Shown in pieces: positions 1 to 40,629 of a DNA stretch of 64,000 bases. Below the pieces are notes generated by a model. That model did no database searches and was not told where the DNA came from. It saw nothing but the letters and a program-made list of their open reading frames with translations. This DNA is from Deltaproteobacteria bacterium (GTDB lineage Bacteria > Desulfobacterota > Deferrisomatia > Deferrisomatales > BM512), in NCBI GenBank assembly GCA_002869015.1, contig PKTT01000023.1, positions 1 through 64,000 on the forward strand. Direction: 5' to 3'. Every line of letters begins with the position of its first letter. Position 1 is the stretch's first letter. Both the position numbers and the translations under genes were made by a program.

Positions 1-234
1 AACCTGGGTCAAGCTGCCACCCGAAGCTATATCACCACGTGCCACAGAGGCACTTTTACACTAACATTGAAGGTGGACCTATGTAAGGGGGCAGCTCAGC
101 TGTACCATCTAAATTATGACCTCTAAGGTAAAAATTATTCGATATTTTAAGGAGTTCTGAGGTAGGACAGCGTAGCGCCAATATGAATTCATGCTTTACA
201 TATTTAATTTCTAAACTTTAATTGAGGTTATTTC

Positions 235-822: not shown

Positions 823-905
823 ATTGGCCTGATCGTTCCAAAATCTTTTTGTAATGCGCTGCCTTTAGCAGCTCCTTATATGGAGACTGCTTTATCCAGC
901 ATTCC

Positions 906-1841: not shown

Positions 1842-1939
1842 CTAGGCGCTCCTTTGCTATCCCTTTGCCATCGCTATGAAAGCATATTTCCATTTAGCGG
1901 CATGAGTGTTGCAGTTATTAATCCTCAACAGGTGCAAAT

Positions 1940-1969
1940 ATTTTGCCAATGCCGTTAATTGGGCAAAAT
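1940..1969. promoter_or_regulatory. Inverted repeat between divergent genes (possible operator)
   Basis: The arms ATTTTGCC (1940-1947) and GGCAAAAT (1962-1969) are perfect inverted repeats 14 bases apart. They sit in the 236-base divergent region between the NifM-like gene and the repeat protein at 2078. There is no T-run on either side, so a terminator is unlikely. The regulator is unknown. Confidence 0.35.
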
Positions 1970-2077
1970 GAGCCTAATGAGCAAGAGATATTGTACATAA
2001 ATGTCGACCCTACCTTTCAAAGTTGTCTGATTTTTTGATCTTTGGGGTCCGCCTCTTGAGAAGCGAGGTTGTTTCAT

Positions 2078-3034
2078 ATGGCCGATTTAAAATTGATGTG
2101 CGGCACCCTTAAAGATGTCGAGGAGGTGATGAGCCGCAAAGATGGCTCTGTGGAATCCTGCATAGTTATGGGGCGCTCAAAAGTTTTAACCAGCGTTGGC
2201 GAACTTACGCCGGTCTATGATGTAGAGGAGGAATCCAGGCGCATCCTCCAGCCGATCTCGATTTACCCGGACGGCAGTGTCAAGGCCGTGGCCCTGCAAG
2301 GGGTAGCTAAAGTGTCTACGCCGATTGGTGAATTTGAGGCCGAGATGGTGAGCTTCCACAAAAACGGAGGTGTCAGAGGCATCTTCCCCTTGAACGGCAA
2401 GCTCTCAGGCTTCTGGGCAGAGGAGGAGGAGGCGAAGCTGGCGAAATCAGTTGTGATAGATACTCCTATAGGCGCCATCAGAGCTAAAGTGATCTCACTA
2501 TATTTCCACCCTTCGGGCGCGCTTCGCTCAGTTACCCTCTGGCCCGGAGAGGTCATAGAGATTGACACTCCCCTGGGGCCTTTTGGGGCGAGGGTAGGGG
2601 TATCCTTCTACGAAAACGGGGCGCTCCGATCCTTAGAACCGGCGAAACCTACCGGGATAGCTACCCCGATAGGGGGATTCACAGCATTTGACCCTGACCC
2701 TGACGGCATCAGCGGAGACAGTAATTCGCTGGTTTTTGATGAAGAGGGTGGTATACGGGAACTCTCAACTCTTACTGAGCAGGTTTCGGTGTTTGAAGGT
2801 GATAAGAAATATACCTTCACTCCAGCCCTTAAAGAGAGCCTCTGTCAGGAAAGCCAGATGGTGGTGCTGCCACTCAAAGTCACCTTCACCAAGGGCGGCG
2901 TTGTGTTAGACGGCAGAGAGTTTCGCCTCGACGAGGCAAAAGTCAAGACAGAGGCGTTTTTGGGAGATATCAAACCAATGGCGCTGAACCTCGGCCGCCA
3001 GGAGTCGCCCGCTCTGCCTCTCTGGAAGTGTTGA
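2078..3034 (+). CDS. Hypothetical protein built of T-P-I-G repeats
   Basis: The protein (318 residues from this start) has four to five degenerate repeats of about 35-50 residues. Each opens with TPIG or TPLG (TPIGEFEAEMVSF, TPIGAIRAKVISL, TPLGPFGARVGVS, TPIGGF) and carries a strand ending NGxVRG or GALRS. The pattern (strand, turn, Gly, strand) suggests a beta-solenoid or MORN-like repeat, but I do not recognise the family. There is no signal peptide. An in-frame TTG lies at 2069, but the ATG at 2078 has AGCGAGG nine bases upstream and is preferred. Its stop overlaps the start region of the macro-domain gene, so the two are likely translated together. The last residue is cysteine. Confidence 0.75.
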   Translation: MADLKLMCGTLKDVEEVMSRKDGSVESCIVMGRSKVLTSVGELTPVYDVEEESRRILQPISIYPDGSVKAVALQGVAKVSTPIGEFEAEMVSFHKNGGVRGIFPLNGKLSGFWAEEEEAKLAKSVVIDTPIGAIRAKVISLYFHPSGALRSVTLWPGEVIEIDTPLGPFGARVGVSFYENGALRSLEPAKPTGIATPIGGFTAFDPDPDGISGDSNSLVFDEEGGIRELSTLTEQVSVFEGDKKYTFTPALKESLCQESQMVVLPLKVTFTKGGVVLDGREFRLDEAKVKTEAFLGDIKPMALNLGRQESPALPLWKC

Positions 3035-3036
3035 AT

Positions 3037-3468
3037 ATGATTGAGGCTGAGGGTGACCTTTTTGCTGAGATCGGAAGCGCTATTATCGCATTCACCACCC
3101 ATGGGACGGTTAACAAACGGGGGGCGACGCCGATGCTTCACGGCTCGGCGCGGGAGGCTTTAAGGCGCTTCCCAGAGTTGGCGGAAGAGCTGGGAGGGAT
3201 GATAAGTAAATACGGAAACCACGTTCACCCACTCTCCCATGGCCTCGTCAGCTTTCCGGTAGAGCACGGCTGGATGGAGGTCCCCGATCCTCGCCTTATT
3301 GAGCGTTCGGCGGGCGAACTTAAAGCTTTGGCTGACCAAAATGGGTGGAAAAAAATCATCGTGCCGCGACCTGGCTGCGGTGGTGGAGGGCTTAAGTGGG
3401 AGGAGGTAAAACCTCTCCTTGAACCATATTTCGATGAGCGCTTTACCTTGGTGGTAAAGGCTCGATAA
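3037..3468 (+). CDS. Macro-domain-like protein (putative ADP-ribose-binding)
   Basis: The product has 143 residues from the ATG. It shows an Appr-1-p processing (macro) fold: the N-terminal EGDLF element, a central HPLSHGLVSFPVE strand region, IERSAGELKALADQNGW helix, and PRPGCGGGGLKWEEV, a glycine-rich phosphate-binding loop typical of macro domains. Members bind or hydrolyse ADP-ribose derivatives; the substrate here cannot be told from the sequence. GTG 3028 and TTG 3031 are in-frame alternatives; the ATG at 3037 starts just past the upstream stop (3032-3034), which indicates translational coupling with the repeat protein. A hairpin at 3491-3519 follows the gene but favours the opposite strand. 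Confidence 0.75.
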   Translation: MIEAEGDLFAEIGSAIIAFTTHGTVNKRGATPMLHGSAREALRRFPELAEELGGMISKYGNHVHPLSHGLVSFPVEHGWMEVPDPRLIERSAGELKALADQNGWKKIIVPRPGCGGGGLKWEEVKPLLEPYFDERFTLVVKAR

Positions 3469-3490
3469 GAGTTGGCTAGTAAAATAAAGG

Positions 3491-3519
3491 GAGGGGCAAA
3501 GCCCCTGGCTTTACCCCTC
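3491..3519 (-). terminator. Rho-independent terminator for the minus-strand gene at 3546
   Basis: A 13-bp stem (3491-3503 with 3507-3519) has a 3-base loop. On the minus strand all pairs form, with one G-T wobble, and a TTTATTTT run follows. On the plus strand there is a C-A mismatch and no T-run, so it mainly serves the minus-strand gene. Confidence 0.65.
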
Positions 3520-3545
3520 GCGGATTAAAATTCTCCAAAAACAGA

Positions 3546-3797
3546 TCAGGAAGTGGGTTTGCTGAAAGTTCTAATGGAGGAGATGCCCATCCAATCGTAG
3601 TAGGTGTTAACTGATTCGCCTTCGCGACTCTCCGTAACACGTACAAAATCGCTGCCCAAAAATATTACTGCGCTCTCGAAAATGGGCCCCTCGTTGATCT
3701 GTAGCTTAACGCCGCTTCTCTGCTTTCTTGAGAGTGTCCCGTGCTGCGGGGAGGTCGCATATTCAAGCGCCTTCTCCCATGTTTCCTTGATAGCCAT
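3546..3797 (-). CDS. Small hypothetical protein
   Basis: An 83-residue acidic/basic mixed protein of unknown family. The longer frame begins at 3833, but the internal ATG at 3797 (MAIKETWEKALEYA) has GAGAGGAG just upstream and is the better start. The C-terminal half (VKLQINEGPIFESAVIFLG, then TYYDWMGISSI) looks like alternating beta strands, as in a small beta-barrel. It lies in the same orientation as the 105-residue gene upstream at 3854-4171 and is followed by a terminator, so the two may form a short operon. No function can be assigned. Confidence 0.6.
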   Translation of the reverse strand: MAIKETWEKALEYATSPQHGTLSRKQRSGVKLQINEGPIFESAVIFLGSDFVRVTESREGESVNTYYDWMGISSIRTFSKPTS

Positions 3798-3853
3798 TGA
3801 CTTCTCCTCTCTAATTTCAAGTTGCCGCGGCATTTAGCCACGTATTGAGGTCC

Positions 3854-4171
3854 CTAAGAGACCATAGGTTCGTAAAAACGCAGCTGGAGCTCTTCGCCCT
3901 CACCGGTTGAGAGCTCATAAGTGCCTGCGCGTAAAAGCTCAATCCCCTCGCTTTTCACCGCCTCCGACAACTTTGAAAGGAGCGGCGAGCGCTTTGCCTC
4001 ATCGAATTCGCGGTTAAAGTAAACGCGGACCGGGGCATCGGGGTCGGATACCTGAAAGAGGAAGTGGTTATGGGTGAAAAGCAGTAGATCCTCGTGGGCG
4101 TGGGTGAGGTGATAACCGGCAGACCATACGCTGTTCTCGACCTTCTCAACTATCTCATCACGGCTCTTCAT
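3854..4171 (-). CDS. Hypothetical protein, 105 aa
   Basis: Unrecognised soluble protein. It begins MKSRDEIVEKVENSVWSAG, contains a histidine-rich stretch (HLTHAHEDLLLFTHNH) and a second half of predicted alternating strands and helices (RVYFNREFDEAKRSPLLSKL). There is no signal peptide, membrane segment or cysteine. GAGAGGAAG lies upstream of the ATG. It precedes the small gene at 3546-3797 by 56 bases on the same strand. The clustered histidines could bind metal, but that is a guess. Confidence 0.6.
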   Translation of the reverse strand: MKSRDEIVEKVENSVWSAGYHLTHAHEDLLLFTHNHFLFQVSDPDAPVRVYFNREFDEAKRSPLLSKLSEAVKSEGIELLRAGTYELSTGEGEELQLRFYEPMVS

Positions 4172-4555
4172 AGCGGCGCTTCCTCTCTATGGCACTTTTT
4201 TGGTAGGTAAATTCTTCCTACAAATTCGAAAGTAATTGTCTACACAATTGTCAGCTTTTAGCGATTTACAAGGCCCAAATGCCCTTCGCCGGATATAAAG
4301 AGCAACATCTATGCCCAAAACATTTGTGCGGGGTGTTGGCAAAGAAAGAGTCGCGTTGAGCCAATAGTGGCTATTTGCAATGCAACCCCAAGTAGCTTGA
4401 AGAAGTGAATTGGCAGAGGAGGATGATTGCTCCCCCATGCAATTTTTAATTTATGTTGTAAAGATGGCTAATGCTTATGCGGCTTATCGTGAATGGACCT
4501 TCACCCGATGGCAAAAGAGTATTGGGCAGGGATGTAATTTTATTAATGGACCGAT
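4172..4555. other. Intergenic region, 384 bases, nothing recognised
   Basis: The stretch is more AT-rich than its surroundings and holds only short frames without convincing ribosome sites or familiar residues. It should contain the promoter of the minus-strand gene starting at 4171, and possibly the terminator of the glycosylase gene ending at 4556, but I could not pick out a convincing example of either. Confidence 0.4.
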
Positions 4556-5293
4556 TTATCTCCTCTTATTTTTTGCCTCATGGTTATCGTCCAAAAAAAA
4601 ATTCAATTCATAGAGGGCGGTCGATTGCAGCAGGTAATTCGTACCGTGGTGCTCTGAGAGTCGACGAATTTCTCCCAAAAAAGCCGCCGGCCCTTTATCT
4701 CTGGCCTCTGCTACAGAGCTTTTTTCCTCTGTGTTGACGCTGCCCTTGAGAAAGCCCCACATGTGGTCAAGGGCATTTTCGATGCCGCCATGAGAGGGAG
4801 GGAGACGAAGTAATTTAACCAGGTCTGAGGCTAGCCCTCCATCTAATCCCTCGCTCATCCCGGCAACCCTGGGGCCCGTCTCCCGGTAAAAGCGCTCATC
4901 CCTTGCGAGCACTGAAAATTTATGAGTCCCCCAGAGGTCACGACTATCCAACGGGATGGGGATCGGCCCATCAACCTTAAAAAGATATTTATCTTTGAGG
5001 AGCTCATATTGCTTTTGCGGAGGGTCAATATAGGTATCCGGCCACTTTAGGTCGCTGCTATCCTTTGGTAGGGGTGATAAATGGTTATATCCCCTTAGCA
5101 CCATCTCGGAGGCAACCATGTCGTGACGCATTGCGAGTGCATTCAGGCAGCCTTCCCACCTTAAGGTCTCCGGGTGGCGGGAGTAGCCCTTTTTCCCTAG
5201 GGTTAGGATGTTGAATATCCCGTGGATCTCCCTGTGCTCGCCTAGCAAGCTTCCCCTGTTTAGAAAGGGTGGGGGAATGTCCCAAACTCTCAA
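4556..5293 (-). CDS. Pyrimidine-dimer DNA glycosylase (endonuclease V type) fused to DUF1722
   Basis: Two domains are joined in 245 residues. Residues 1-75 match the pyrimidine-dimer glycosylase/T4 endonuclease V family: MRVWDIPP, LLGEHREIHGIF with Glu22 aligning to the catalytic Glu23 of T4 endonuclease V, KGYSRHPETLRW and RGYNHLSPL. Residues about 121-235 match DUF1722 (the YbgA domain): HKFSVLARDERFYRETG, LPPSHGGIENALDHMWGFL and YLLQSTALYEL. The enzyme family cuts DNA at UV dimers with its N-terminal amine, so the start matters. The TTG at 5293 is preceded by GGGAG nine bases upstream and leaves the family's N-terminus intact. The domain calls are strong; joint function is inferred. Confidence 0.82.
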   Translation of the reverse strand: MRVWDIPPPFLNRGSLLGEHREIHGIFNILTLGKKGYSRHPETLRWEGCLNALAMRHDMVASEMVLRGYNHLSPLPKDSSDLKWPDTYIDPPQKQYELLKDKYLFKVDGPIPIPLDSRDLWGTHKFSVLARDERFYRETGPRVAGMSEGLDGGLASDLVKLLRLPPSHGGIENALDHMWGFLKGSVNTEEKSSVAEARDKGPAAFLGEIRRLSEHHGTNYLLQSTALYELNFFLDDNHEAKNKRR

Positions 5294-9680: not shown

Positions 9681-10883
9681 TTGAGCGCCTTGCCGAGAAA
9701 AATATTCTACCCATTTCTATTTCCAGGAGGCCTGATTTGGGCCGCAGCCATATTGCTCTTCCTCTATGGAGATGGGGCCATAGTATCTCACCCTGTCGTT
9801 TCTTGGTTGCCGATTATCGTGCTGCTTTTGAGTCTCTTTATTGGGTGGCGCTTTAACAGGGGAAAGCTGCCACTAGTAATACTGCTCGTATACGCAGCCT
9901 CTTATCTACTCGCTGAGTCCCAAAGCCTTTTAGGTGGAGACTTAAACGCTACTATTTCAATCCTGCTGCCGCTAAATTATGCGCTCCTTGCTTTTGGCTC
10001 GGAGAGAGGTTTCTTTTCACTGGCGCTCTTACTTAAAGCATCCTTCATTGTATTGCAGGCCGGTGCGGTATTGCTTCTTCACAGGGTTTTGGGAGGGGAC
10101 TTTCACAGCTACATAGCTTTTTCGCCGGTTGCACATCCTATCTTTGATGGTATTTGGATGCCGCAGCTTGGTCTGGCTGCTTTTCTCGCGACAGCAGTCC
10201 TTATGCTGCTTAGATTCCTGGCTCGAAAGACGGCTGTGGATGCCGCCTTGTTCTGGGGCATTGTATCGCTTTTTTCGGGGATGATTTATGGAGGCGCGCC
10301 TCTCTTTTTCTCGGCGGCAGCGCTGCTGCTTCTCGCGGGGCTGGTTGAGGGCTTTCACTTCCTCGCATTTAGGGATGAGCTGACCTCATTGCCTACCCGC
10401 CGCGCCTTTAACGAGACTCTTTTGAGTTGCAAAGCGCCAACTACAGTCGCCATAGCTGATATTGACCACTTCAAAAGGGTCAATTACCGCTATGGCCACG
10501 ATGTAGGCGATCAGGTTCTCAAGATGGTCTCCTCCAGACTCTCAAGGGTTGGCGGGGGAGGGAGGGCATTTCGCTACGGTGGAGAAGAGTTCGCCCTTAT
10601 ATTCCATGGATCAAAGGGTGAGAGTGCTAAAGATGAGCTTGAGGAGTTGCGTGCCGCCATCTCATCGACCCCATTTGTTTTAAGGGGAATCCTGAGGCCG
10701 ATATCCTCCTCCTCATCAAGAAACAGGAGCAAAAAAAATCCTAGGCCGCTAAGGGTAACCATTTCGATAGGTTTTTCAGAGGTAAGGGAGGGGGACCAAT
10801 CCCCTGTAGATGCGGTGACCCGTGCGGACAAGGCTCTCTACAAATCTAAAAAGGGAGGGAGAAATAGGGTTACAGGCGGTTGA
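9681..10883 (+). CDS. Membrane diguanylate cyclase (GGDEF)
   Basis: 400 residues. The first 230 hold about seven hydrophobic helices with no large soluble loop, a membrane-embedded sensor of unclassified type. The GGDEF domain follows (about 235-400) with DELTSLPTRRAFNE, DIDHFKRVNYRYGHDVGDQ and the active-site GGEEF at 300-304, so c-di-GMP synthesis is expected. The inhibitory I-site RxxD five residues before GGEEF is absent (the region reads LSRVGGGGRAFRY), so product feedback may be lost. A serine/arginine-rich insert (ISSSSSRNRSKKNPRP) lies before the last strands (VTISIGFSE). The TTG start has AGGAG nine bases upstream. Transcribed alone. Confidence 0.9.
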   Translation: MSALPRKIFYPFLFPGGLIWAAAILLFLYGDGAIVSHPVVSWLPIIVLLLSLFIGWRFNRGKLPLVILLVYAASYLLAESQSLLGGDLNATISILLPLNYALLAFGSERGFFSLALLLKASFIVLQAGAVLLLHRVLGGDFHSYIAFSPVAHPIFDGIWMPQLGLAAFLATAVLMLLRFLARKTAVDAALFWGIVSLFSGMIYGGAPLFFSAAALLLLAGLVEGFHFLAFRDELTSLPTRRAFNETLLSCKAPTTVAIADIDHFKRVNYRYGHDVGDQVLKMVSSRLSRVGGGGRAFRYGGEEFALIFHGSKGESAKDELEELRAAISSTPFVLRGILRPISSSSSRNRSKKNPRPLRVTISIGFSEVREGDQSPVDAVTRADKALYKSKKGGRNRVTGG

Positions 10884-26318: not shown

Positions 26319-27181
26319 CGGTGGCTGAAGGCGAAAGATCATTTTTAGGCAGGATAATCGCGAAATTTAAGGGAGAGCGCGGCGAACGCGACCTCGTTCG
26401 CGAGATGGAGGAGCTCATAGAAGAGGGCTCCGCAGAGGGCCTCATAAACTCCGACGAAGGGGAGATGCTCCTCTCCGTGCTTGAGTTTCGCAGCACCCTC
26501 GTAAGGGAGATAATGATACCCCGCACAGAGATGGTGTGCGGGGAGGTGAACGCATCGGTGGGTGAGATCATAAAGCTGATGATTGAGGGGGGGCACTCCA
26601 GAATACCAATCTATGAGGGTGACGTAGACCATGTAGTTGGAGTTGTCCATGCGAGAGACCTGCTCGAATTCTGGGGCAGCGAAGATAATAAAATCTCTTT
26701 GGTGCAGCTTATAAGGCCCGCCTACTTCGTTCCGGAGACGATGGCGATTGAAAACCTCTTGCGCGAGCTGAGAGATAGAAAAGTTCACATGGCTATTGCC
26801 GTCGATGAGTATGGGGGAGTATCCGGCCTCGCCACCCTTGAGGATGTGATTGAGGAGATAATCGGCGATATCCAGGATGAGTGGGATGATGAGGATGAGC
26901 CGATGGTTAGAGAGCTCTCCGACGGGTATGAAGTTGACGGGCGCTGCGAGATTGAGGAGCTTAACGAGGCTATAGGAGTAGAGATGGAAGCTGACGGTGA
27001 GTTCGAAACTGTTGGCGGCCTGGTCTTAGACGAGCTTGGACGCGTTCCTTCTCCGGGTGAATCCTTCACCAAAGGGGACTTTGACTTTGTGGTCCGCGAT
27101 GCGGATAAGCGGCGAGTGAAGTCAGTTATGATTAGGCGGCGAAAGGGGTCGGGGGGAGCCGAGGAAGATGGAGAGGGATAA
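26315..27181 (+). CDS. CorC/HlyC-family CBS-domain protein
   Basis: 288 residues: a short acidic start, two CBS domains (about 65-195; MIPRTEMVCGEVNASVGEI, HSRIPIYEGDVDHVVGVVHA in parts, VDEYGGVSGLATLEDVIEEI) and a C-terminal CorC_HlyC transporter-associated domain (DGRCEIEELNEAIG, ETVGGLVLDELGRVP). There are no membrane helices, as in CorC. Such proteins are linked to Mg2+/Co2+ resistance and envelope integrity, and are commonly coded beside ybeY. TTG at 26315 overlaps the ybeY stop; GTG at 26321 is an alternative. It overlaps the CheR gene by 14 bases. Confidence 0.88.
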   Translation: MTVAEGERSFLGRIIAKFKGERGERDLVREMEELIEEGSAEGLINSDEGEMLLSVLEFRSTLVREIMIPRTEMVCGEVNASVGEIIKLMIEGGHSRIPIYEGDVDHVVGVVHARDLLEFWGSEDNKISLVQLIRPAYFVPETMAIENLLRELRDRKVHMAIAVDEYGGVSGLATLEDVIEEIIGDIQDEWDDEDEPMVRELSDGYEVDGRCEIEELNEAIGVEMEADGEFETVGGLVLDELGRVPSPGESFTKGDFDFVVRDADKRRVKSVMIRRRKGSGGAEEDGEG

Positions 27182-28928
27182 AGCTAGAATTATAGCAGTC
27201 GCCCAGAGTAAGGAGCGCGCGCGCCAGATAGCGGAGTTGGTCAACCGCACCTCATTTTCCGCCATACACACACACGATCTTTTGGGCGCCTTATTCCATG
27301 AGCCAAACCTCTTAATAATCGATCCCACCTCCTGGGAGAGCTCCTGCAGGATGATTCTTGAGGAGTTTGAGAGTAGGGACTATCCTCCTCCAGCGGTATA
27401 TTTAATAGGCGGCGGGTTGGAGCTTGCCTTCTCCGCAGGGCCTGCTCTTGGTGTAATTAGCGATGACGAACACCCCTTCACCTTAGGTGAGAAGATTCGG
27501 ATGGCGCTGGCCGCCCAACGTATCTTCGCCTCTTCATGGAAGCGCCTTAGAAGTGCCTTTGAAAAACATTTTATGGACCGGACTGAGAAGCTTCTATTGG
27601 AGCGAACAGGGGTGCGAGTCCGGGAAGACCGCCTCTTGGCGCTCAGAAGAGCGATCTTCGCTCGCGGGATCGCCAGGCTTTCAAACAGCCCCCAAGAGCT
27701 TGAGCGTTGCCTCGCGGACCCTTCGGGTGAGCTTGACCTTTCCATCCTCGTGACCCGCGTTGTCGCCCCAGAGACTTATTTTTGGCGTTATTCAGGCCAG
27801 ATGAATGCGCTTAAAAAACTTTTGGAAGGGCGCTGCAAAGATGGTTCCGATGAAATTAAGGTGCTCTGCGCCGGATGCTCAACCGGTGAGGAGGCTTACT
27901 CCGTTGCCTTTGCCATAAAGGAGGCTTTCGGTGGTGGCGCAGACTTTCATGTTTGGGGAACAGATATAAACCTCCACGCAATTGAGGTCGCCAAAAGAAG
28001 GCGCTATACAAATCATTCAGTCAGAAACCTGCCGGAGCGCTTTATAGGCCGCTGGATAGTTCGGGATCAGGAGGAGTGGGTCGTCTCTGAAGAGCTTGAG
28101 CGCCATGTCACCTTCGAGGGGATGAACCTCCTTGGAGGGGACACTGAGAGCTGGCTTAAGGAACACGGGCCCTTTGATGCAATCTTTTGCCGCAATGTGA
28201 CCATATATTTCGACCCTGCCAAGACTAGGCTACTGCATGAGCTTATGACCTCCTCAATCGCAAATGGAGGAGGATATTTTCTCGGTTCCTCCGAGATGCT
28301 CCTAAAAATTCCCGATGGTTTTACAGCCGTTCATGATTCGGGCTCTTTCTACTACCTAAAGAGTGATGCTATCTCTGCCGTAGAGGAAGAGGCGCGATTG
28401 GCCGACGAAGAAGCTGAATTGGAGGTAAAGGTTGACGCAGCCTACCGAAGCGGTCTCCGTGCCCTGGCAAAGGAGGACACCAGAGGAGCCAGCGACGCCT
28501 TTTCGGAGCTTGAAAAGCTCTCCCCCAATGACCCCCGCACAATGACCGGCGCGGCGGTGCTGCTCTCCAACGAGGGGAGAGAGAAGGAAGCGCGTGAGAA
28601 AGTTCTTGTAGCTCTGGAGTGCGAAAAGGTGCCGGCGGAAGCCTTCTTCCTTGCCGGTCTCCTTGAAGAGAGGCAGGGGCACGATAGCGAAGCGCTCTCC
28701 ATGTATGGAATGGCGCTAGGGCAGGATGAAAACTTTTTCATGGCGCATGTCAACCGTGCGTGGATACTTCGCAGGCGGCAATGTATCAAGGCTTTCAGGA
28801 AAGAGATGGAGGCTGCACTTGAGATACTGCGAAAGAGCCCTCAGAAAGCCTCCTGGGCAACGGGCGGACTTGGGTTCGACACAATTTTAAGGATGGTTGC
28901 CGACGCCCTCGCAGAGGAGCCTAATTAA
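27168..28928 (+). CDS. CheR-type methyltransferase with N-terminal pseudo-receiver and C-terminal TPR
   Basis: 586 residues in three parts. Residues 1-120 resemble a receiver domain (LLIIDPTSW) but lack the acidic pair on strand one. Residues about 130-410 are CheR: VVAPETYFWR, VLCAGCSTGEEAYSVA (SAM loop, from 232), WGTDINLHAIEVAKRRRY and FDAIFCRNVTIYFD. Residues about 430-586 form TPR-like helices (RGASDAFSELEKLSPND, DPRTMTGAAVLLSNEGREKE, VNRAWILRRRQC). CheR with TPR is the WspC pattern. It methylates chemoreceptor glutamates, here probably those of the receptor encoded two genes downstream. First gene of the chemosensory operon, reached through from corC by a 14-base overlap. Confidence 0.88.
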   Translation: MERDKARIIAVAQSKERARQIAELVNRTSFSAIHTHDLLGALFHEPNLLIIDPTSWESSCRMILEEFESRDYPPPAVYLIGGGLELAFSAGPALGVISDDEHPFTLGEKIRMALAAQRIFASSWKRLRSAFEKHFMDRTEKLLLERTGVRVREDRLLALRRAIFARGIARLSNSPQELERCLADPSGELDLSILVTRVVAPETYFWRYSGQMNALKKLLEGRCKDGSDEIKVLCAGCSTGEEAYSVAFAIKEAFGGGADFHVWGTDINLHAIEVAKRRRYTNHSVRNLPERFIGRWIVRDQEEWVVSEELERHVTFEGMNLLGGDTESWLKEHGPFDAIFCRNVTIYFDPAKTRLLHELMTSSIANGGGYFLGSSEMLLKIPDGFTAVHDSGSFYYLKSDAISAVEEEARLADEEAELEVKVDAAYRSGLRALAKEDTRGASDAFSELEKLSPNDPRTMTGAAVLLSNEGREKEAREKVLVALECEKVPAEAFFLAGLLEERQGHDSEALSMYGMALGQDENFFMAHVNRAWILRRRQCIKAFRKEMEAALEILRKSPQKASWATGGLGFDTILRMVADALAEEPN

Positions 28929-28933
28929 AAAAA

Positions 28934-29482
28934 ATGAGCAAGGCGGGTTTCAAGAACCGGTTCAGCGAGGAGGAGCGCCTTCGCTTCTGGGCCGAGATGG
29001 AAGCAAGGGCGGAGAAGCTAAAAGAGCCCGATGGCGACCCGCATCTTGTATTCAAGGTTGGTGGAGCGAGCTTTGCCATTGACGCGACACTATCCCTTGG
29101 GGTGCTTCCCTGGACCCAGCCGACCCCGCTGCCCTTTCTCCCTAGGCACTTGAAGGGGGTCACATTCCTGCGCGGGCGGATAATATCAGTGACTTCGCTA
29201 GCTGTTTTGCTCGGCGTAGAGCCTAGCGCAAAGCCCAGCTATTACGTGATAGTAAAAGCTGGTGAGCTGGAGACTGCCCTGGAGGTCGAGGGTGTTGAGG
29301 CGGTGCTTTCGATTGACTTAGAAAAAGTCGATAGTGCCAAAGGCCTATGGAGAGGAGCGAGGATAGGGCTTGTAACGGGGCAAGCGCCGGAGCGGGTTCC
29401 GCCTATTTATATCATTGACGTTGAACGATGCCTGAGACAGAGGGCAACGGTTGAAACATTTTCTGGAGGGTTGAATGATTAA
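28934..29482 (+). CDS. cheW: CheW-type coupling protein
   Basis: 182 residues. The CheW fold occupies about 35-175: [40 protein letters not shown] (the GxxxxRGxIxxV strand pair) and [20 protein letters not shown]. The N-terminal 30 residues are charged and helical, longer than in canonical CheW. It bridges the chemoreceptor and CheA. Its stop overlaps the receptor start by eight bases, so the pair is co-translated. Only one CheW is present, against two (WspB, WspD) in the Pseudomonas Wsp system. Confidence 0.88.
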
Positions 29483-31112
29483 CTTCATGAAGAAGAGCCT
29501 GACAGTGAAGGTTACCTTCGCAATCATCACGATGATGATCATTGTCTTCGGTCTAATGGGTTGGTATTCGCTCAAAAGGTCGAGCACCACCATCGCCGAG
29601 ACGGAGATGAGGTGGAACAAACACTTCGCCTTCTTTGTCGATGACGTGATGCAGCACTATATGCAGGACAATGACCCGGAAGGGTTGGAGCATTTCATAA
29701 GCGAGGCTTCAAAGTCCAGCGGCTTTAAAATGCTGAAAGTCATAAACGCTGATAAAGAGATAAGTTTTTCAAATGAAAGAGATGAGATAGGGCGCTTTAC
29801 CGCTAACCCGGAGGTAGCGGCGCTGTTGCTGGAGGTAGAGCGGACAAGGCAGCCCGGGACAATTTTGAATGGCTCCATAAGTATAACAGCGGTGCCCCTT
29901 ATAGCTGATGAGGGCTGCTCGGTCTGCCATCCCCCCTACGGCAGATATCTTGGTACGACTGTGATAGGCAGCGATATTTCTGAGGCAAACGCAAATATCA
30001 ACAACATATTTTTTGAGGGAACATTTCTCTTTGTCGCGGCGCTCCTGATAATCATAGCCGTCCTCTACTTTTCAATGAGAAAACTGGTTCTTTCGCCACT
30101 TTTCAGGCTCGTACGGGATGCAAAAAAAGTTTCTCAGGGCGACCTTGCGCACCGTTTCAGGCTGGAGAGTGAAGATGAGATGCGTGAACTGGCGGACCAC
30201 CTCGAAACCATGCAGTCACAGCTGCGCTCGACCATAGCTGAACTGGCTGATGTCAATAACTCAATTGTCGGCGCTATCGATGAGTTGGATACCTCCAGCG
30301 AATCTTTGGTCGGCCTCTCAGCGGAGCAGGCTAGCGGAGCCGCCGAGCAGGCCGCCGCTGTGCATGAGGTCACCACCTCTGCGCAGGAGATCGCGACTAC
30401 CTCGGCGCAGATATCGGCAAACGTTGAGTCGATCAGGAAGATGGCGGAGGATGCCTTTGACGCGTGCCTCCAGGGCCGCAAGGACGTTAAGGATGCCATC
30501 AACGGGATGAGCTTGGTCCGGGACAAGGTGAGCTCTATCTCGGAAGCCACCGTTGAGCTTGGGCGAAAATCACATAAAATTGGTGGTGTCATCTCAATAA
30601 TCGACGAGATATCAGAGCAAACGCACCTCCTTGCCCTAAACGCAGCTATTGAAGCCGCCGGGGCGGGCGAGCATGGAAAACGCTTCGGAGTCGTTGCCAC
30701 AGAGGTGAGGCGTCTCGCCGAGCGTACAGTGGAGGCGACGGCTGAGATAAAGGCGCTGATTGAAGAGATACAGGAATCAACTAACGAAACTGTGATGATA
30801 ACCGAACGCGGCTCCGATATCGTGCGTGATGGCACCTCCAAGGTCGATCTTGTCGGTGATACCCTTGAGACACTTAGCAAAAGAGTTGAGATGACAAAGG
30901 AGTCTGCCAAGGAGATGGCGATAGCGACCCGGCAGCAAGCTACCGCCGGGGAGCAGCTTGTCCTCACCATTACAGATATAAACTCGGTCGCTGTTCAGGT
31001 GAGCCGCGCGGCAGAGAAGGTGGAGAAGAACGCCATGGGGCTAAAATCCATCTCCCTTAAATTAAAAGAGCTAAGGGAGAGGGCGCAGTTGCTGGACAAG
31101 TACAAGCTCTAG
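29475..31112 (+). CDS. Chemoreceptor with periplasmic heme-c site
   Basis: 545 residues. Membrane helices at about 12-32 and 177-200 enclose a 145-residue periplasmic sensor. In it the motif CSVCH (Cys148, Cys151, His152), followed by [10 protein letters not shown], is a covalent heme-c attachment site. HAMP follows ([20 protein letters not shown]), then the coiled-coil signalling domain with tip [20 protein letters not shown] and [20 protein letters not shown]. Glu/Gln-rich helices supply methylation sites for CheR/CheB. It resembles the redox/oxygen-sensing heme receptors of Desulfovibrio (DcrA) and Geobacter in principle. No C-terminal CheR-docking pentapeptide is present. It should feed the hybrid CheA downstream. 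Confidence 0.9.
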
Positions 31113-31123
31113 GATGAGCGCCT

Positions 31124-33220
31124 ATGCTTGAGCAGTCCAAGTATATAGAGATATTTCTCGATGAGGGGAGAGATATTCTATGCTCCCTGGAGAAGGAGCT
31201 CTTAGCCCTTGAGCGGGACCCCTCATCCTTTGAGGCTATCTCCACGGCGCTCAGGCTTTCGCATACCTTGAAGGGCTCTTCAAGGATGGTTGGGCTTGCC
31301 GGCGTCAGCAATGCCGCTCATGGCATAGAAAATATTCTCGAGATGCTCGGCTCCTCAAAAGAGGATGTATCCGGGGATGACTTCGCATTTGTCTTTGACG
31401 TCATAGACAAAATCAAATCGCTCTTCGAGTCCATCTCAGCGGGCGAGGTCTCAGACCTTGAGATGGACTTTCCAAACATTGCGACCAAAGAAGGGGCGAA
31501 GAGCTTCGAAGAAAAAGGTACCAAAGAGCAGAAGGCACCTAATAAATCCACTGCCAAAGGTATCCGCAAACCTCTCCTTTCCCTTGATTTGGATAGCGCA
31601 GATAGCGCCCCATCCAAGAGGCTTGGTGACGCGTTAAGAGTCAGGCTCGAAAAGTTAGACTCCTTGATGGAGGAGCTTGAAAATGCCACTGTCGCCTCCC
31701 GTAACCTCGCAGATCGCATTGCCTCGATTTATCCGGCAGCTCAGAATACCGAAGACAAGTTCTCCTCTGGAGCGTTAAGGGTTGAGAGTGAGCGTTTGGA
31801 GGCTTTGGTCTCCAGCGCGAGAAACGCTGTGGTTGAGATGCGAATGCTGCCTGTTGCGTCTCTCTTTGACCAGTATCCACGGATGGTGCGTGACATAGCG
31901 GCAGACCTTGATAAAGAGGTAGAACTTAAAATTGAGGGTGGTGACCTTGAGCTGGACAAGCACCTCATGGAGGATATATACGGCTCTTTGACCCATCTTG
32001 TAAGGAACGCCCTCGACCACGGTATTGAGAGGCCCGATGAAAGAGCCTTACGAGGTAAGGAGCGGGGAGGCGTTATATCACTCAGAGCCTATCAGCGGCC
32101 GGGGGCAGTGGTTGTAGAGGTTGAAGATGACGGCAACGGGATTGACGCCGATACTTTGAGGAGCGTTGCTATTAAGAAGGGTTTCTTGCAACCCTCGGAA
32201 GCTCAAGCCATGGAGGATGAGGACCTATTCTACCTTCTTTTAAAGCCTGCTTTTACAACTCGCCGTGAAGCGGATCAGCTCTCGGGTAGGGGCGTTGGGC
32301 TTGATGTAGTGAAAAATATGATTGACTCTGTACACGGCACAATGACAATCAAAAGTGAAAAGGGTAGATTCACGCGCTTCAGTCTCTATCTTCCGAAATC
32401 CTATTCAGGCCTGAAGGGAGTCGAGGTCATTTCTGGCGGCGTGCCGGTCGTCATTCCCACGCTCTTTGTGGAAAAGTGCTTTACCGTTGGCGCTGAAGAG
32501 TTTCAGCGGCGTGATGGCCGCGTAGCATATCTGGGAGAGAAGCTACACCTCGTAAGCCTTGGCCTTCTTCTCGGAAGAGCAGTTGAGGATATATCAACTG
32601 GTATTGAGGTTCTAGTCCTGCGTTTCAGGGATAGACGGATGGCTCTTGCTGTTGAGAGTGTTGTAGGCGATGCGGAGTTTCTCCTCAAGGGTACGGGCAG
32701 GCACCTTGAGGAGGAGGGAGCGTCCTTGCTTGGCATTACAATTACAAGGGAGGGTATACCAGCCCCTGTATTTGATGTGCGTTATCTCGCGGAGCGTTGG
32801 GCCGGGTTGGAGTTTTCCTGCCGCGTTCCCCTGCCAAAGGTAAAGCGAAAACTCAAGATCCTGGTGGTCGATGATGCATTGACTTCTTTGCACGTTATCT
32901 CCTCCTTTGTAGGAGCTATGGGGCACAGCGTCTTTCAGGCACACGATGGGGCCGAAGCTTGGAGCATGATGGAGGATTACCCCGTCGACCTGGTCGTGAC
33001 TGATATGGAGATGCCCGAGATTGACGGCATTGAGTTGACCAGGAGAATAAGGCGTAGTGAGTGGTTCAAAAAGACGCCGGTAGTGATGGTGTCGGTAAAG
33101 GGCGAAGAGACGATTGTCAGCAGAGCTTTCGAGGCGGGGGCAAATGCCTTCATCCACAAGGAGCGGTTGGATGGGGCCAGCCTTGAGAAGACAATAAAGA
33201 ATCTCTTGCCCGATATTTGA
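31124..33220 (+). CDS. CheA-type hybrid histidine kinase with C-terminal receiver
   Basis: 698 residues. Hpt domain at 1-110 with phospho-acceptor His47 (LRLSHTLKGSSRMVG); a variable linker to about 165; dimerisation helices; ATPase (about 285-430) with LVRNALDHGIE, VEDDGNGID and GRGVGLDVVKNMID; a CheW-like domain (about 435-570); and a receiver from about 577, with Asp583/584 and phospho-acceptor Asp627 (VVTDMEMPEIDG). No CheY/CheB-binding P2 domain is apparent. The CheA-REC architecture is that of WspE. The fused receiver may act as a phosphate sink or a target for tuning. It starts 11 bases after the receptor. Confidence 0.92.
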   Translation: MLEQSKYIEIFLDEGRDILCSLEKELLALERDPSSFEAISTALRLSHTLKGSSRMVGLAGVSNAAHGIENILEMLGSSKEDVSGDDFAFVFDVIDKIKSLFESISAGEVSDLEMDFPNIATKEGAKSFEEKGTKEQKAPNKSTAKGIRKPLLSLDLDSADSAPSKRLGDALRVRLEKLDSLMEELENATVASRNLADRIASIYPAAQNTEDKFSSGALRVESERLEALVSSARNAVVEMRMLPVASLFDQYPRMVRDIAADLDKEVELKIEGGDLELDKHLMEDIYGSLTHLVRNALDHGIERPDERALRGKERGGVISLRAYQRPGAVVVEVEDDGNGIDADTLRSVAIKKGFLQPSEAQAMEDEDLFYLLLKPAFTTRREADQLSGRGVGLDVVKNMIDSVHGTMTIKSEKGRFTRFSLYLPKSYSGLKGVEVISGGVPVVIPTLFVEKCFTVGAEEFQRRDGRVAYLGEKLHLVSLGLLLGRAVEDISTGIEVLVLRFRDRRMALAVESVVGDAEFLLKGTGRHLEEEGASLLGITITREGIPAPVFDVRYLAERWAGLEFSCRVPLPKVKRKLKILVVDDALTSLHVISSFVGAMGHSVFQAHDGAEAWSMMEDYPVDLVVTDMEMPEIDGIELTRRIRRSEWFKKTPVVMVSVKGEETIVSRAFEAGANAFIHKERLDGASLEKTIKNLLPDI

Positions 33221-33264: not shown

Positions 33265-35301
33265 ATGATTAGGGTACTTATTACCGATGATTCTCGGCTT
33301 GTAAGGGGCGTCCTCAGGGAAATTATAGAGGATGACCCCGAGATCACTGTAATCGCTGAAGCATCCAATGGCGCCGAGGCGGTAGAGATATGTATAAAGG
33401 AGCGCCCTGACGTAGTTTTAATGGACGTTCAGATGCCTGTGATGGACGGCATCGAATCCGTCAGGCGCATAATGCAGTCTGCGCCCACTCCGGTTATAGT
33501 GCTTTCAGCATCCGTTAAATCAAGCGAGACTCGCTCTGCATTCGCTGCGCTATCCGCAGGGGCAATAGATGCAATTGCAAAACCCCACGGCATAGTTTCA
33601 GCTGATACGTATAGCTCCATAGCCGATGACATCATAGGCAGGATCAAGCTTTATGCTAGGGTAGCAAAAAAAGGTAAGCTGGATACCGAAGAGCATCCAC
33701 GGAACAACGAACAAATATCATCTCCCGCAATTTCCTCAAGCGTAATTGCCATTGGCGCTTCTACCGGAGGCCCCAGAAGTCTCTCCGCGCTGCTTTCAGC
33801 TTTAAAACCCGATTTCCCTTGCCCGATACTTTTGGTTCAGCACATAAGCGAGGGCTTCATGCGTGGCTTCTCCGAGTGGCTGGGCAGGGAAATCTCTTTG
33901 GAGGTGGTGATTGTAGACCATGCGATGAGGCTGGAACCCGGCCGTGTTTACCTGCCCCCCGACGGGTACCACCTTGAGGTCGCAAGAGGCGCTGCCGTAT
34001 TGAGTGAAGCTCCTCCGCTGCATGGATGTCGCCCGGCTGTTGATGTGCTCTTTAAATCCCTAGCGGAGGAATATGGGGAGAGAGCTATTGGTGTAGTTCT
34101 AACCGGTATCGGAGTCGACGGCGCCGCAGGCGCGGCGGCAATAAAGGCTGTCGGTGGTATGGTGATAGCGCAGGATGAAGAGTCCTCGGTTATCTTCGGA
34201 ATGCCCAAAGCGGTTATAGAACGCGACGCCGCGACACATGTCGCAAGCCTTCAAAATATGCCCAAGTTGCTAAGTGAATTGGCAAGCGCTCATGCAGATG
34301 ATAACGGCGGGCTCTTCGGCGCCTCGCAGCGGGTAAACGAGGTCCTAGTGGTCGATGACAGCCCTACGATGAGGGCTGTGCTATACGATATTTTAACCGC
34401 ACACGGGCATAGTGTGCGCCAAGCTGAGAATGGGCGCCTCGCTTTGCAGGAAATCTCAAGGCAAGAGCCGGACCTGATAGTGCTGGATGTGATGATGCCA
34501 GAGCTTGATGGCTACTCCGTTTGCCGTAGAGTGCGTGAGGATTACGGCTATATACCCGTGCTAATGGTTACCGCCAAGGGCTCTTCAGAGGATATGGTCA
34601 GGGCCCTTGAGGCCGGGGCCGATGATTGTATTGCCAAGCCCTTCGAGCCGATGGAGCTCTCCGCCAGGGTTCAGTCGCTCCTTCGTATACGCTCATTACA
34701 CCAACGGCTCTTTACGCAAAATAATGAATTGGAAGCTAAAAACAGAGAGCTAGAGCGGCTCGCCCGCGCGCTTAACCGCGCCAACAAAGAGCTGACCCTG
34801 CTCTCCGTCACAGATGGGTTAACCAAGGCTTACAACCATCGCCATTTCCAGGAGCGTTTCAAGTCTGAATTTGCCCGCTCCGAGCGTTATGGGACTTTGC
34901 TCTCCATAATCCTGATCGACATTGACCACTTTAAAAGAGTTAATGATAACTACGGACACCCCGTCGGCGATCAGGTGCTCATCCATCTTGTTGAGGTGCT
35001 TGAGGAGTCAGTACGAAAAGAGGACCTTGTCGCCAGGTATGGCGGCGAGGAATTTATCTTGATGCTCCCGGAAACCTCAGGCCCCAGGGCGCTCCTCTTG
35101 GCTAAGAGAATCAGAGAGAGAATCGAGCAGAGCGAGGTGGTGATAGATGCCTCACTTTCGGTCCGCTATACGGTGAGCCTTGGGGTATCCTCCTATGAGC
35201 CGGGGGGTAAGGTGCAGACGGCAGAGGCGCTCATTGCAAAGGCCGATTCGGCCCTTTACAGCGCAAAGGCAAATGGTCGCAACCGCGCAGAGATGGCTTG
35301 A
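33265..35301 (+). CDS. CheB methylesterase fused to REC-GGDEF diguanylate cyclase
   Basis: 678 residues, four domains. REC1 1-125 (Asp54, VLMDVQMPVMDG). CheB methylesterase 157-345 with catalytic Ser166 (GASTGGP), His193 (VQHISEGF) and Asp285 (GIGVDGAAG). REC2 358-475 (Asp408, IVLDVMMPELDGY; Lys458). A coiled linker (about 478-512) leads to GGDEF 515-678 with DIDHFKRVNDNYGH, active site GGEEF 593-597 and an intact I-site RKED at 584-587. REC-CheB is the WspF layout and REC-GGDEF the WspR layout, here in one chain. It should both demethylate the receptor and make c-di-GMP when CheA phosphorylates its receivers. An AT-rich 44-base gap precedes it. Confidence 0.93.
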   Translation: MIRVLITDDSRLVRGVLREIIEDDPEITVIAEASNGAEAVEICIKERPDVVLMDVQMPVMDGIESVRRIMQSAPTPVIVLSASVKSSETRSAFAALSAGAIDAIAKPHGIVSADTYSSIADDIIGRIKLYARVAKKGKLDTEEHPRNNEQISSPAISSSVIAIGASTGGPRSLSALLSALKPDFPCPILLVQHISEGFMRGFSEWLGREISLEVVIVDHAMRLEPGRVYLPPDGYHLEVARGAAVLSEAPPLHGCRPAVDVLFKSLAEEYGERAIGVVLTGIGVDGAAGAAAIKAVGGMVIAQDEESSVIFGMPKAVIERDAATHVASLQNMPKLLSELASAHADDNGGLFGASQRVNEVLVVDDSPTMRAVLYDILTAHGHSVRQAENGRLALQEISRQEPDLIVLDVMMPELDGYSVCRRVREDYGYIPVLMVTAKGSSEDMVRALEAGADDCIAKPFEPMELSARVQSLLRIRSLHQRLFTQNNELEAKNRELERLARALNRANKELTLLSVTDGLTKAYNHRHFQERFKSEFARSERYGTLLSIILIDIDHFKRVNDNYGHPVGDQVLIHLVEVLEESVRKEDLVARYGGEEFILMLPETSGPRALLLAKRIRERIEQSEVVIDASLSVRYTVSLGVSSYEPGGKVQTAEALIAKADSALYSAKANGRNRAEMA

Positions 35302-36838
35302 CCTAAGGGTACCCGCCCTGGCGGCGTGGGGTGCCTTTGTAGGCGCCGCCGCGTTCGCTCCCGTAGGCTGGTGGCCCCTTGCCATGATTGCCCTCGTCCC
35401 CCTTTGGACAATTGCAATGACCGAGGGCCCGAGGCGCTGCGCTTTATTCGGTTTCTCATTTGGCGTGGGCTTTTTTTGCGCCTCCCTATATTTTTTAATC
35501 GAGACCCTTCGCGTGCACGGCTACATGGCGCTGCCGTTGGCTCTCTCAACCTACCTCCTGCTAGTATTTTATCTTTCGCTCTACCCTATGCTCTCTACAG
35601 CGCTAATAGGTTATGTCGCTAAAGTAAGCCCCGCTATAGCGCTGGTTGTTGCCCCCTTTGCATGGACCGGCTTTGAATGGCTAAGGGGTGAGGTCATCAT
35701 CGGTTTCCCTTGGGGAGATCTGCCGATGGCTCTTTGGCGTCTACGAACGGCGCTTGACCTTGCTCCGATATTGGGGGTTGGCGGCGTTCGCCTACTTATG
35801 GCCTCAATTTCAGTGGCGGGTGTGTTCATCCTGCTTCCGAAAAAGACCCGGCAGGGCGCGCGCTACGCTTTAATATTGCCTTTGGCCGCTTTGGTGCTCT
35901 CCTTAGCGCTGCCAAAAGCCGTGGAAATTAAAAGCGAGGTTCTCGGCAAGGGGGACATCGCCATAATTCAGGGGAATATCCCCCAAAGCGAGAAGTGGCT
36001 ACCCGGTATGCGCCAGGAGACGCTTAACCGTTACCGCCGCTTAACCCTTGATGCGGTAGCTGGTACTCCACCTGATTTTATCCTCTGGCCGGAGACCGCC
36101 ATGCCTTCGAGGGTTCCCGTCGGTTCAAGCGGGCGACGTTTTGTTGAGAAACTGGCCCGGTCGGCAAAGAGCTCAATAATCTTTGGCGCTCCTTCTAATG
36201 TCTACAAAGATGGCGGCGTAAAGGAGTCAAGAAATTCTGTCTATGGCGTTACCCAAAATGGGAATTTCACTGGACGGTACGACAAGGTAAAGCTGGTGCC
36301 TTTCGGCGAGTACGTCCCCTTTGAGCGCTACCTGCCCTTTGTAAAGAAAATTTCAAGTGCTGCGGGAAACTTCAGGCCGGGAGAGGGATTCTTGAGCCTG
36401 CCGCTGGGAATCACCGAAGATGCGCGAAGAGTTGGGTCATTGATCTGCTTTGAATCGCTATTCCCAGCCTTCGCCACCGCACAGGCTAGAGGAGGTGCCA
36501 ATATTTTAGCTGTGGTCACCAATGATTCATGGTTCGGAGACTCTTCAGCCCCCTCAAGGCACCTCGCCTACTCTGCGTGGCGGGCCGCGGAGAACGGCCT
36601 CTGGCTTATAAGAGCGGCAAATACTGGAATAAGCGCTATATTTGATGAGCGCGGCGAACTCATAAAGTCCACATCTCTGGATGAGACTACCTTCTTGAGG
36701 GGGGAGGTCGAATATAGAGCAAGCGAAGGTTTATTACAGGGCGCTCTAAGGCCTTGGGTGGAGCTCACCTCACTTCTCTTGGCTATAATAGCCCTTTTTG
36801 GTATTCTACGGCTCCGCCGCGCTGAAAGCAGCGGGTAA
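35273..36838 (+). CDS. lnt: Apolipoprotein N-acyltransferase
   Basis: 521 residues from ATG 35273, which overlaps the end of the CheB-GGDEF gene by 29 bases; the longer frame from 35180 adds only a non-homologous Arg-rich stretch. Six or so N-terminal membrane helices are followed by a periplasmic carbon-nitrogen hydrolase domain with the catalytic triad Glu (WPETAMPS), Lys (YDKVKLVPFGEYVPFE) and Cys (GSLICFESLFP), and a last membrane helix. Lnt adds the third acyl chain to lipoproteins, and the window encodes several substrates. Presence of lnt supports a Gram-negative envelope. Confidence 0.92.
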   Translation: MVATAQRWLDLRVPALAAWGAFVGAAAFAPVGWWPLAMIALVPLWTIAMTEGPRRCALFGFSFGVGFFCASLYFLIETLRVHGYMALPLALSTYLLLVFYLSLYPMLSTALIGYVAKVSPAIALVVAPFAWTGFEWLRGEVIIGFPWGDLPMALWRLRTALDLAPILGVGGVRLLMASISVAGVFILLPKKTRQGARYALILPLAALVLSLALPKAVEIKSEVLGKGDIAIIQGNIPQSEKWLPGMRQETLNRYRRLTLDAVAGTPPDFILWPETAMPSRVPVGSSGRRFVEKLARSAKSSIIFGAPSNVYKDGGVKESRNSVYGVTQNGNFTGRYDKVKLVPFGEYVPFERYLPFVKKISSAAGNFRPGEGFLSLPLGITEDARRVGSLICFESLFPAFATAQARGGANILAVVTNDSWFGDSSAPSRHLAYSAWRAAENGLWLIRAANTGISAIFDERGELIKSTSLDETTFLRGEVEYRASEGLLQGALRPWVELTSLLLAIIALFGILRLRRAESSG

Positions 36839-38593: not shown

Positions 38594-40513
38594 CTATTGT
38601 ATTGCACCTACGGCCTTCATATCTTCAGCCCGCTCCTTCGCTATCTCCTGAGCGACCTTGCTCTTCTCCTTCATCTTTTTAATTCTCTCCTGAACGGCAC
38701 GTTCAGCGTTTGATTCACGCAGTTGCTGGATCTTTTTTCTGTAGTCCACAAGCTGCGCCCTGCGCTCTCTTCCACCAGCGGCGTTTTCAAGGGTCTGACC
38801 CTGATCAGCCTCAGCCGCTACCCCATTAGTTGATAGGTTGCTTGGGAGCTCATTTGCCTTAGGATCTTCACCGGACATTGCAGTTTCTGTTGCGGCCGCC
38901 TTGATATTGTGGGGTTTTACAACCATTGCTGAGTTGACTTCTTCGGATTCGGTGGATGTCTCCTCCGGGCTCTCCTGATTAACATCGCCTTCTTTGACCG
39001 CTTCCTCGGTGGCTTTTTTCTCGGCCTCCAGGCGGGCAGCTTCCGCTTCCTCGGCGGCTTTTTTTTCGGCCTCCAAGCGGGCAGCTTCAGCTTCCTCAGC
39101 GGCCTTCTTTTCAGCCTCCAGGCGGGCAGCTTCAGCTTCCTCAGCACGCTTTCTTTCCAGCTCACGATCCTTGCGTGCCTGCGCAGCTTTTCTCTCTGCT
39201 TCTGCGCGCTCGGCCTCAAGTCGCTTAGCCTCTTCTGCTGCGATCCGCTCCTCTTCAGCTTTCTTTTCCGCTGCCAAGCGAGCCGCTTCGGCCTCCTCGG
39301 CGGCTTTCTTCTCAGCCGCTATACGAGCGGCTTCAGCCTCCTCGGCGGCCTTTTTTTCAGCAGCAACTCTCGCAGCTTCCTTCTGGGCAGCTATTTTCTC
39401 AGCTGCTACCCTTGCGGCTTCGGCTTCCTCGGCAGCTTTCTTTGCTTTTTGCTCTTCAAATTTTGCTTTTTCAAAGTCTTCAGGTTTTAGAAGCTTTGTG
39501 TCAGAGCCATCTTCGAGCTCTTGGGATTCAGCATCGTCATTTTCTTTGGGGGGCGGAGATTTCAGCATCTCCATGGCTTCCTTTGACGCCGCTTTTTCAA
39601 TCTCTTCGCGCTTTAGCTTCTCTATAATTTCAATCGCCTCAACCTCGTAGGGAGTGTCCCCGTATAGTTCAAGAAACTTTTCCAGAGCGGTTACGGAGCC
39701 CGCCTCCTCTGCCATCGTCAGCGCTTCAAGCGCTGATGAAAGGTGTGCCGCCCTGGCCCTTGCCTCCGGCACCAGATGTGAATCGGGGTGCTCCTCCAAA
39801 AAGGCGTCATAAGCGGCGACTGAGTCCTTTTTTTGCGCCATACTAAAATCAGCTTCCTGGCGGTCATACTCGGCGCGCCACTTCTCAGCAAGGGCGGTAG
39901 CCTCTATTGCTTGAGGCTCATCGGGGTAGAGGCGCACAAACTCCTCCATTTTATCTGGGCTTTTTGCTGCCAGGGCGCTTTTAAAGAGCGATTGTATCTT
40001 TGATTGACGCTTTTTAACCGCCGCATCGTAATCGCGCAATATCTTTAGCTGGCGCCTTGCGTCCTCGGAGTAGTAGCCGATGGGATTTGCGTTGATGAAG
40101 TCCTGTAGGCTCTCAATGGTCCCGGTGAGGATTGCGTTCTGGTATTCACTCTGTTCGGCTTCGTCAATCTGCTCAAGAGATTGACGGACATGAGCGAGAA
40201 CGGTTTCCATATCCTCGGCGTCCGGGTTGAGGAGGCGGTACGCGTTGAGGTGATAGAGTGCCTTTTCATACCTTCTCGACTCATCTTCGAGCCTGTAGAA
40301 ATAAAGTATGCCCAGGTTGTAGTGCACATCAGAGTACGCCGGCTCAAGCTTCAGCGCCGCCTGATACTGTTTCGAAGCCTCGACATACTCTCGTCTTTTA
40401 AGATATTCGTTCCCCGCCATCTTACGTTTGACCGCCTCAGCGGATGGTTGCGCGTAAGCTGTTGCAGTTATTAGCGAGGCGACTAGTAATGACGTCGCGA
40501 TGATGCCACGCAT
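38594..40513 (-). CDS. Exported TPR protein with long TolA-like coiled coil
   Basis: 639 residues from ATG 40513, which has GGGAGAAG upstream and a signal peptide ([19 protein letters not shown]). Residues about 25-140 carry TPR helices ([40 protein letters not shown]). A helical middle with repeated LEEHP/FLELY-type units follows to about 300. Residues about 345-500 form an Ala/Glu/Lys coiled coil with 15-residue repeats of the type [15 protein letters not shown], like the TolA shaft. A charged C-terminus ends in more helices. It may span the periplasm or bind peptidoglycan or Tol-Pal-like partners; none is coded nearby. Function unknown. Confidence 0.75.
39002..39136. repeat. Three 45-bp tandem repeats inside the coiled-coil gene
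   Basis: Units 39002-39046, 39047-39091 and 39092-39136 are near-identical and keep the reading frame, each coding a 15-residue heptad-like block. More diverged copies continue to about 39430. They are prone to copy-number change by slippage or recombination. Confidence 0.8.
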
Positions 40514-40629
40514 ATGTTGGCTTCTCCCTGATATCAATAAAATGCACGAAAGTAACACTGCCGTACATTGTAGGTGATTACGCCTTACTTTTACAAGGTT
40601 TTGGGGCTATTGGCACCTTGAAAAATGCC

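Follow-up and report, generated by a model that had tools for sequence, protein, structure and literature searches.

Related chemosensory systems

In the Wsp system of Pseudomonas a single kinase, WspE, has two phosphorylation targets: the receptor-demethylating WspF and the c-di-GMP-making WspR (PMC6324874). How far cells commit to biofilm depends on the balance between WspF feedback and WspR output, and a main route to wrinkly, biofilm-forming mutants is the loss of WspF; a WspC-WspD fusion among wrinkly spreader mutants provides a laboratory precedent for component fusion altering output, and in P. fluorescens wspR has its own promoter (PMC6324874). WspF and WspR are two proteins in this system, which has two CheW-like scaffolds (WspB and WspD) and the gene order wspA-B-C-D-E-F-R. 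The Geobacter Esn system (EsnABCD), which serves growth on electrodes (PMC5585712, PMC6456294), also combines an MCP, CheW and CheA with a c-di-GMP-making regulator, but EsnD is separate and unlinked, EsnA is without a periplasmic domain, and there is no CheB fusion.

The locus considered here lies in a window of 64,000 nt, the whole stretch of DNA that was analysed (contig PKTT01000023.1 of assembly GCA_002869015.1, Desulfobacterota). While the kind with separate genes is known, what appears to be new is a Wsp-like alternative-function chemosensory system with its methylesterase and cyclase fused. The first-pass annotation knew of no characterised protein with this domain order, and text searches of open-licence papers for a CheB-GGDEF fusion likewise gave no published description; such a fusion goes unmentioned in the available portions of papers on Wsp systems (PMC8552884) and on CheR-TPR clusters (PMC3447774).

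The fused gene and its product

The fused gene (33265..35301, + strand, as are all operon features below) runs from an ATG at 33265 to the stop at 35301 with no internal stops. Its reading as one REC-CheB-REC-GGDEF chain in the first-pass annotation is confirmed: it is a single frame of 678 aa in which Pfam and NCBIfam domains follow in that order, with homologues in the family, and the residues named at the time (Asp54, Asp408, Ser166, His193, Asp285, GGEEF and RKED) are all correct and intact. Pfam finds two Response_reg domains, CheB_methylest at residues 161–335 (2.7e-61) and GGDEF at residues 515–674 (6.5e-46). The NCBIfam CheB match over residues 2–340 is above its curated cut-off (417.8 vs 293 bits), as is that of the GGDEF family TIGR00254.

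The first receiver, REC1 (residues 1–125, 33265..33639), has the phospho-acceptor Asp54 and an acidic pair at residues 8–9, and is followed by the CheB methylesterase domain (residues 159–340, 33739..34284) with its triad Ser166, His193 and Asp285; Pfam, residue checks and structure matches agree for both, with NCBIfam in addition for CheB. Asp54 and the triad are conserved in all 10 alignment rows that have the CheB half. A receiver, a CheB match over the curated cut-off and a Ser-His-Asp triad together make this half a predicted methylesterase. The fusion joint (residues 341–357, 34285..34335) is the former gene boundary, as judged from gene junctions, dN/dS, alignment and the structural model, and is both disordered and the fastest-evolving segment of the protein.

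Beyond the joint are REC2 (residues 358–478, 34336..34698), identified in the same ways as REC1, with Asp408 as phospho-acceptor and an acidic pair at 364–365; a helical stalk (residues 479–512, 34699..34800), part of a helix modelled from 462 to 521; and the GGDEF cyclase domain (residues 513–678, 34801..35298; Pfam, NCBIfam and residues). The last of these has GGEEF at 593–597 and RKED at 584–587, five residues ahead of GGEEF, which is the I-site spacing. Asp408, GGEEF and the I-site RxxD are conserved in 10 of 10 alignment rows with the cyclase half. With a single receiver, a stalk whose long helix is modelled, and a GG(D/E)EF motif, this half is a WspR-type REC-GGDEF protein; it matches PleD (1e-61) and WspR (3bre, 4e-46), neither of which bears CheB. 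A Hypr (cGAMP-making) cyclase was considered and rejected, as the residue which we take, via PleD numbering, to be equivalent to GacA S347 is not Ser here but Asp569, retained within NDNYGHPVGD. The window has a second GGDEF-like stretch at 10443-10871 (+), within an open frame of 404 aa.

In an AlphaFold2 model the domains are confident and residues 345–356 of the joint disordered. Residues 1–346 superpose on complete CheB (1a2o; Z 43.5, 2.0 A over 338 residues), and REC1 is predicted to pack on CheB as in that structure. Residues 357–678 match WspR and DgcR with a large rmsd, because the stalk orients the domains differently. The pTM is just 0.50, and therefore the mutual placement of the CheB and cyclase halves carries no prediction. 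Start codons around the joint that might give a free cyclase are not conserved among the homologues compared. One chain carries both the feedback and the output enzyme, so their ratio is always 1:1, and the fixed ratio of adaptation to output proposed in the first-pass annotation holds.

The surrounding operon

Four genes precede the fusion. A CheR methyltransferase (27168..28928; NCBIfam, Pfam) in the WspC role has a weak TPR-like C-terminal part, whose match (6e-4) is under the cut-off. It is followed by a CheW scaffold (28934..29482; Pfam); a chemoreceptor (MCP; 29475..31112), recognized from Pfam, alignment and profile, which has a HAMP domain and a periplasmic sensor of the heme-c type and is the genome's sole PF00015 match; and a CheA kinase in the WspE role (31124..33220; Pfam), with Hpt, HATPase, CheW-like and C-terminal receiver domains. 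Downstream is Lnt (35273..36838; ORF and gene row), a conserved flank whose likely start, ATG 35273, overlaps the fused gene. Farther along the window, at 38594-40558 (-), is a gene whose product of 654 aa contains a long, charged coil of repeated units.

As in Pseudomonas Wsp, CheR-TPR, MCP, CheA-REC, CheB and REC-GGDEF are encoded together and one kinase would serve both methylesterase and cyclase, except that here the last two components are fused. The operon also differs in having one CheW gene where Wsp has two, in its order (CheR, CheW, MCP, CheA, fusion) and in its heme-c type receptor. Lacking both a pair of CheW scaffolds and the Wsp gene order, it is not classed as strict Wsp. The first-pass description of the protein as fused WspF and WspR equivalents thus stands functionally, with halves orthologous to the adjacent CheB and REC-GGDEF proteins of sister operons, but applies to an operon that is Wsp-like and not Wsp proper.

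Conservation and origin of the fusion

Each of the five genomes in the window's family, which span three genera, has the fusion full-length and stop-free (identities 100, 90, 73, 72 and 60%), and the sequence of the joint has diverged among them. The domains are under purifying selection, with dN/dS of about 0.02–0.10 in close pairs with unsaturated dS; dS is saturated in several other pairwise comparisons, and dN/dS from those pairs is meaningless. A sequencing or assembly frameshift joining two genes, named in the first-pass annotation as a possible refutation, has nothing in its favor except the two-gene state of relatives; it is excluded by the full-length recurrence of the fusion across the five family genomes, and such an artefact, common to independent genomes of three genera with diverged joints, is scarcely conceivable.

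Of the class's seven other genomes, six encode CheB and REC-GGDEF separately, by overlapping genes of the same operon, while the seventh is without a match. The gene row in these sisters is YbeY, CorC, CheR with a TPR-like tail, CheW, MCP, CheA-REC, CheB, REC-GGDEF, Lnt and PrfB (in G006 and G010 the contig covers only part of it); between CorC and Lnt the row is the same as that of the fused operon wherever the contig shows it, the difference being the two overlapping genes. The split proteins are 52–61% identical to the halves of the fusion, and the joint aligns with the CheB tail and cyclase N terminus of the split genes. Since the halves are two separate genes in sister operons, the fusion derives from a neighboring pair in wspF-wspR-type order. 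The sister genes overlap by 1, 4 or 14 nt (TGATG in G009, ATGA in G010 and G011, 14 nt in G005–G007) and are in different frames, so that going from this kind of overlap to a fusion requires a small indel.

No fusion was found outside the window's family in 395 genomes of the phylum, counting strong matches only among three scored candidates per genome, nor among the best 80 loci of a genome-contig scan, where CheB-bearing ORFs were REC-CheB only. Two plasmid matches spanning both halves were examined and both proved to be tandem genes. Elsewhere in the phylum, REC-GGDEF comes after CheB in five genomes, in one frame with it but set off by stop codons. The two are also adjacent but separate genes in Wsp-type operons on Cupriavidus and Novosphingobium replicons; in one of these (2428-4521 of locus L136, a Cupriavidus sp. 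EM10 replicon) they share a frame and are kept apart by just a stop and a short spacer, so that one mutation could nearly join them. Most simply, the fusion has a single origin, in an ancestor common to one bacterial family.

The receptor and its likely signal

The periplasmic domain of the operon receptor, as a profile of nine orthologues, matches the PAS-like heme-c sensors of the Geobacter chemoreceptors GSU0582 (3b47, 4.8e-8) and GSU0935 (3b42, 6.7e-5); for the window's own receptor alone, the Pfam sensor score is under the cut-off (21.8 vs 27). Like those two periplasmic sensors, it combines a CXXCH motif with an N-terminal Met. The heme-c motif CSVCH (residues 148–152, 29916..29930) and Met63 (29661-29663), a candidate axial ligand, stand out in the orthologue alignment, where Met63, Cys148, Cys151 and His152 are invariant and the motif takes the form CX4CH in two members. 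In GSU0935 the heme ligands are His144 and Met60 (PMC8396549). With the fold match, a CX2-4CH motif and the N-terminal Met all present, the receptor looks like a putative c-type-heme redox or gas sensor of the GSU0582/GSU0935 kind, and its sequence suggests redox or gas sensing. The difference from the Geobacter proteins is that here the receptor belongs to a Wsp-like c-di-GMP operon, and no other receptor was found. The heme motif is common to the split sister operons, so it is older than the fusion.

Genomic context

None of the five family genomes has FliG, whereas each of the seven sister genomes of the class does. By PF00015 there is one MCP per family genome, compared with 10–29 in the sisters (16–29 in those with split operons). 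The single MCP is the operon receptor in G000–G003; in G004 the operon contig ends inside CheA, before the MCP, and the PF00015 match is an unrelated fragment. Both c-di-GMP effectors and type IV pilus motors are at hand as targets, given the PilZ proteins (10 in G000) and the ATPases of the PilT family.

G000 has one CheB and no match of the hybrid kind seen in G001, where a frame from 1245 of locus L134 (contig C102) encodes a 1528-aa CheB-CheR-PAS-histidine kinase-REC protein. In G003, whose genome has a single MCP, a second cluster (158-5108 of locus L123, contig C22) comprises CheA-REC, CheB and a response-regulator kinase, with no MCP seen near it. Given this cluster and the G001 hybrid, the family is not strictly single-CheB.

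With no FliG and one receptor per genome, the fusion thus belongs to a lineage reduced to a single array, with c-di-GMP as its only visible output. Possibly, tying CheB to a single output requires that it no longer serve other receptors. The fusion and the loss of flagella and receptors amount to one evolutionary event, however, and hence their coincidence is suggestive only.

Possible mechanism and alternatives

The most likely interpretation is redox- or gas-gated, Wsp-like control of c-di-GMP, with receptor demethylation and cyclase output on one polypeptide. From the locus we infer phosphotransfer, both enzyme activities, localization, signal and downstream phenotype as follows. The heme-c receptor would read periplasmic redox state or a gas and so control the CheA-REC kinase. 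Phosphorylation of Asp54 by CheA would open CheB, leading to receptor demethylation as negative feedback, while phosphorylation of Asp408 would, via the stalk, drive the cyclase and so supply PilZ effectors with c-di-GMP. The two receivers would compete for phosphate within one molecule, binding of CheB to the receptor should carry the cyclase to the array, and CheB may be dimerized through the stalk. The first-pass interpretation of the fusion as a whole is partly supported: the fused WspF and WspR equivalents and the 1:1 ratio stand, array placement of the cyclase and phosphate competition are predictions, and the derived origin, single receptor, lack of flagella and likely redox sensor lay outside its view.

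That the product of the truly fused CheB (WspF role) and REC-GGDEF (WspR role) genes works as such a module is probable. A quite different possibility, one to be taken seriously if somewhat doubtful, is that a small indel in the gene overlap produced a neutral fusion whose halves act as separate proteins, affecting stoichiometry only. The short overlaps in the sisters fit this, as do the same-frame pairs with a stop and short spacer in other phylum members and the Cupriavidus operon, and the flexible, rapidly changing joint. Retention of the fusion in five of five genomes, down to 60% identity, speaks against it, yet loss of a fusion made by an indel may be rare. It is improbable that REC1 mainly drains the kinase or REC2 as a phosphate sink, which would make the CheB half a direct brake on c-di-GMP output and leave demethylation a secondary role. 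In its favor, two intact receivers are under one presumed kinase, and CheA bears a third; the complete CheB triad is nevertheless conserved under purifying selection, and a CheR in the same operon fits working methylation.

To return to the preferred reading of a working feedback-and-output module, a more speculative extension, tentative and on balance unlikely, is that it is a minimal one: with a single redox array and no flagellar motor, adaptation and second-messenger enzymes would merge into a protein that couples receptor demethylation physically to c-di-GMP synthesis, the stalk dimerizing CheB and CheB anchoring the cyclase to the receptor.

Significance

This is a natural fusion fixing the ratio of feedback to output, for which sister operons with the genes unfused, found at the same place in the chromosome, are ready controls, and it makes testable how adaptation and output share one kinase. 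For the organisms themselves, which lack FliG, it connects c-di-GMP with a likely heme redox receptor.
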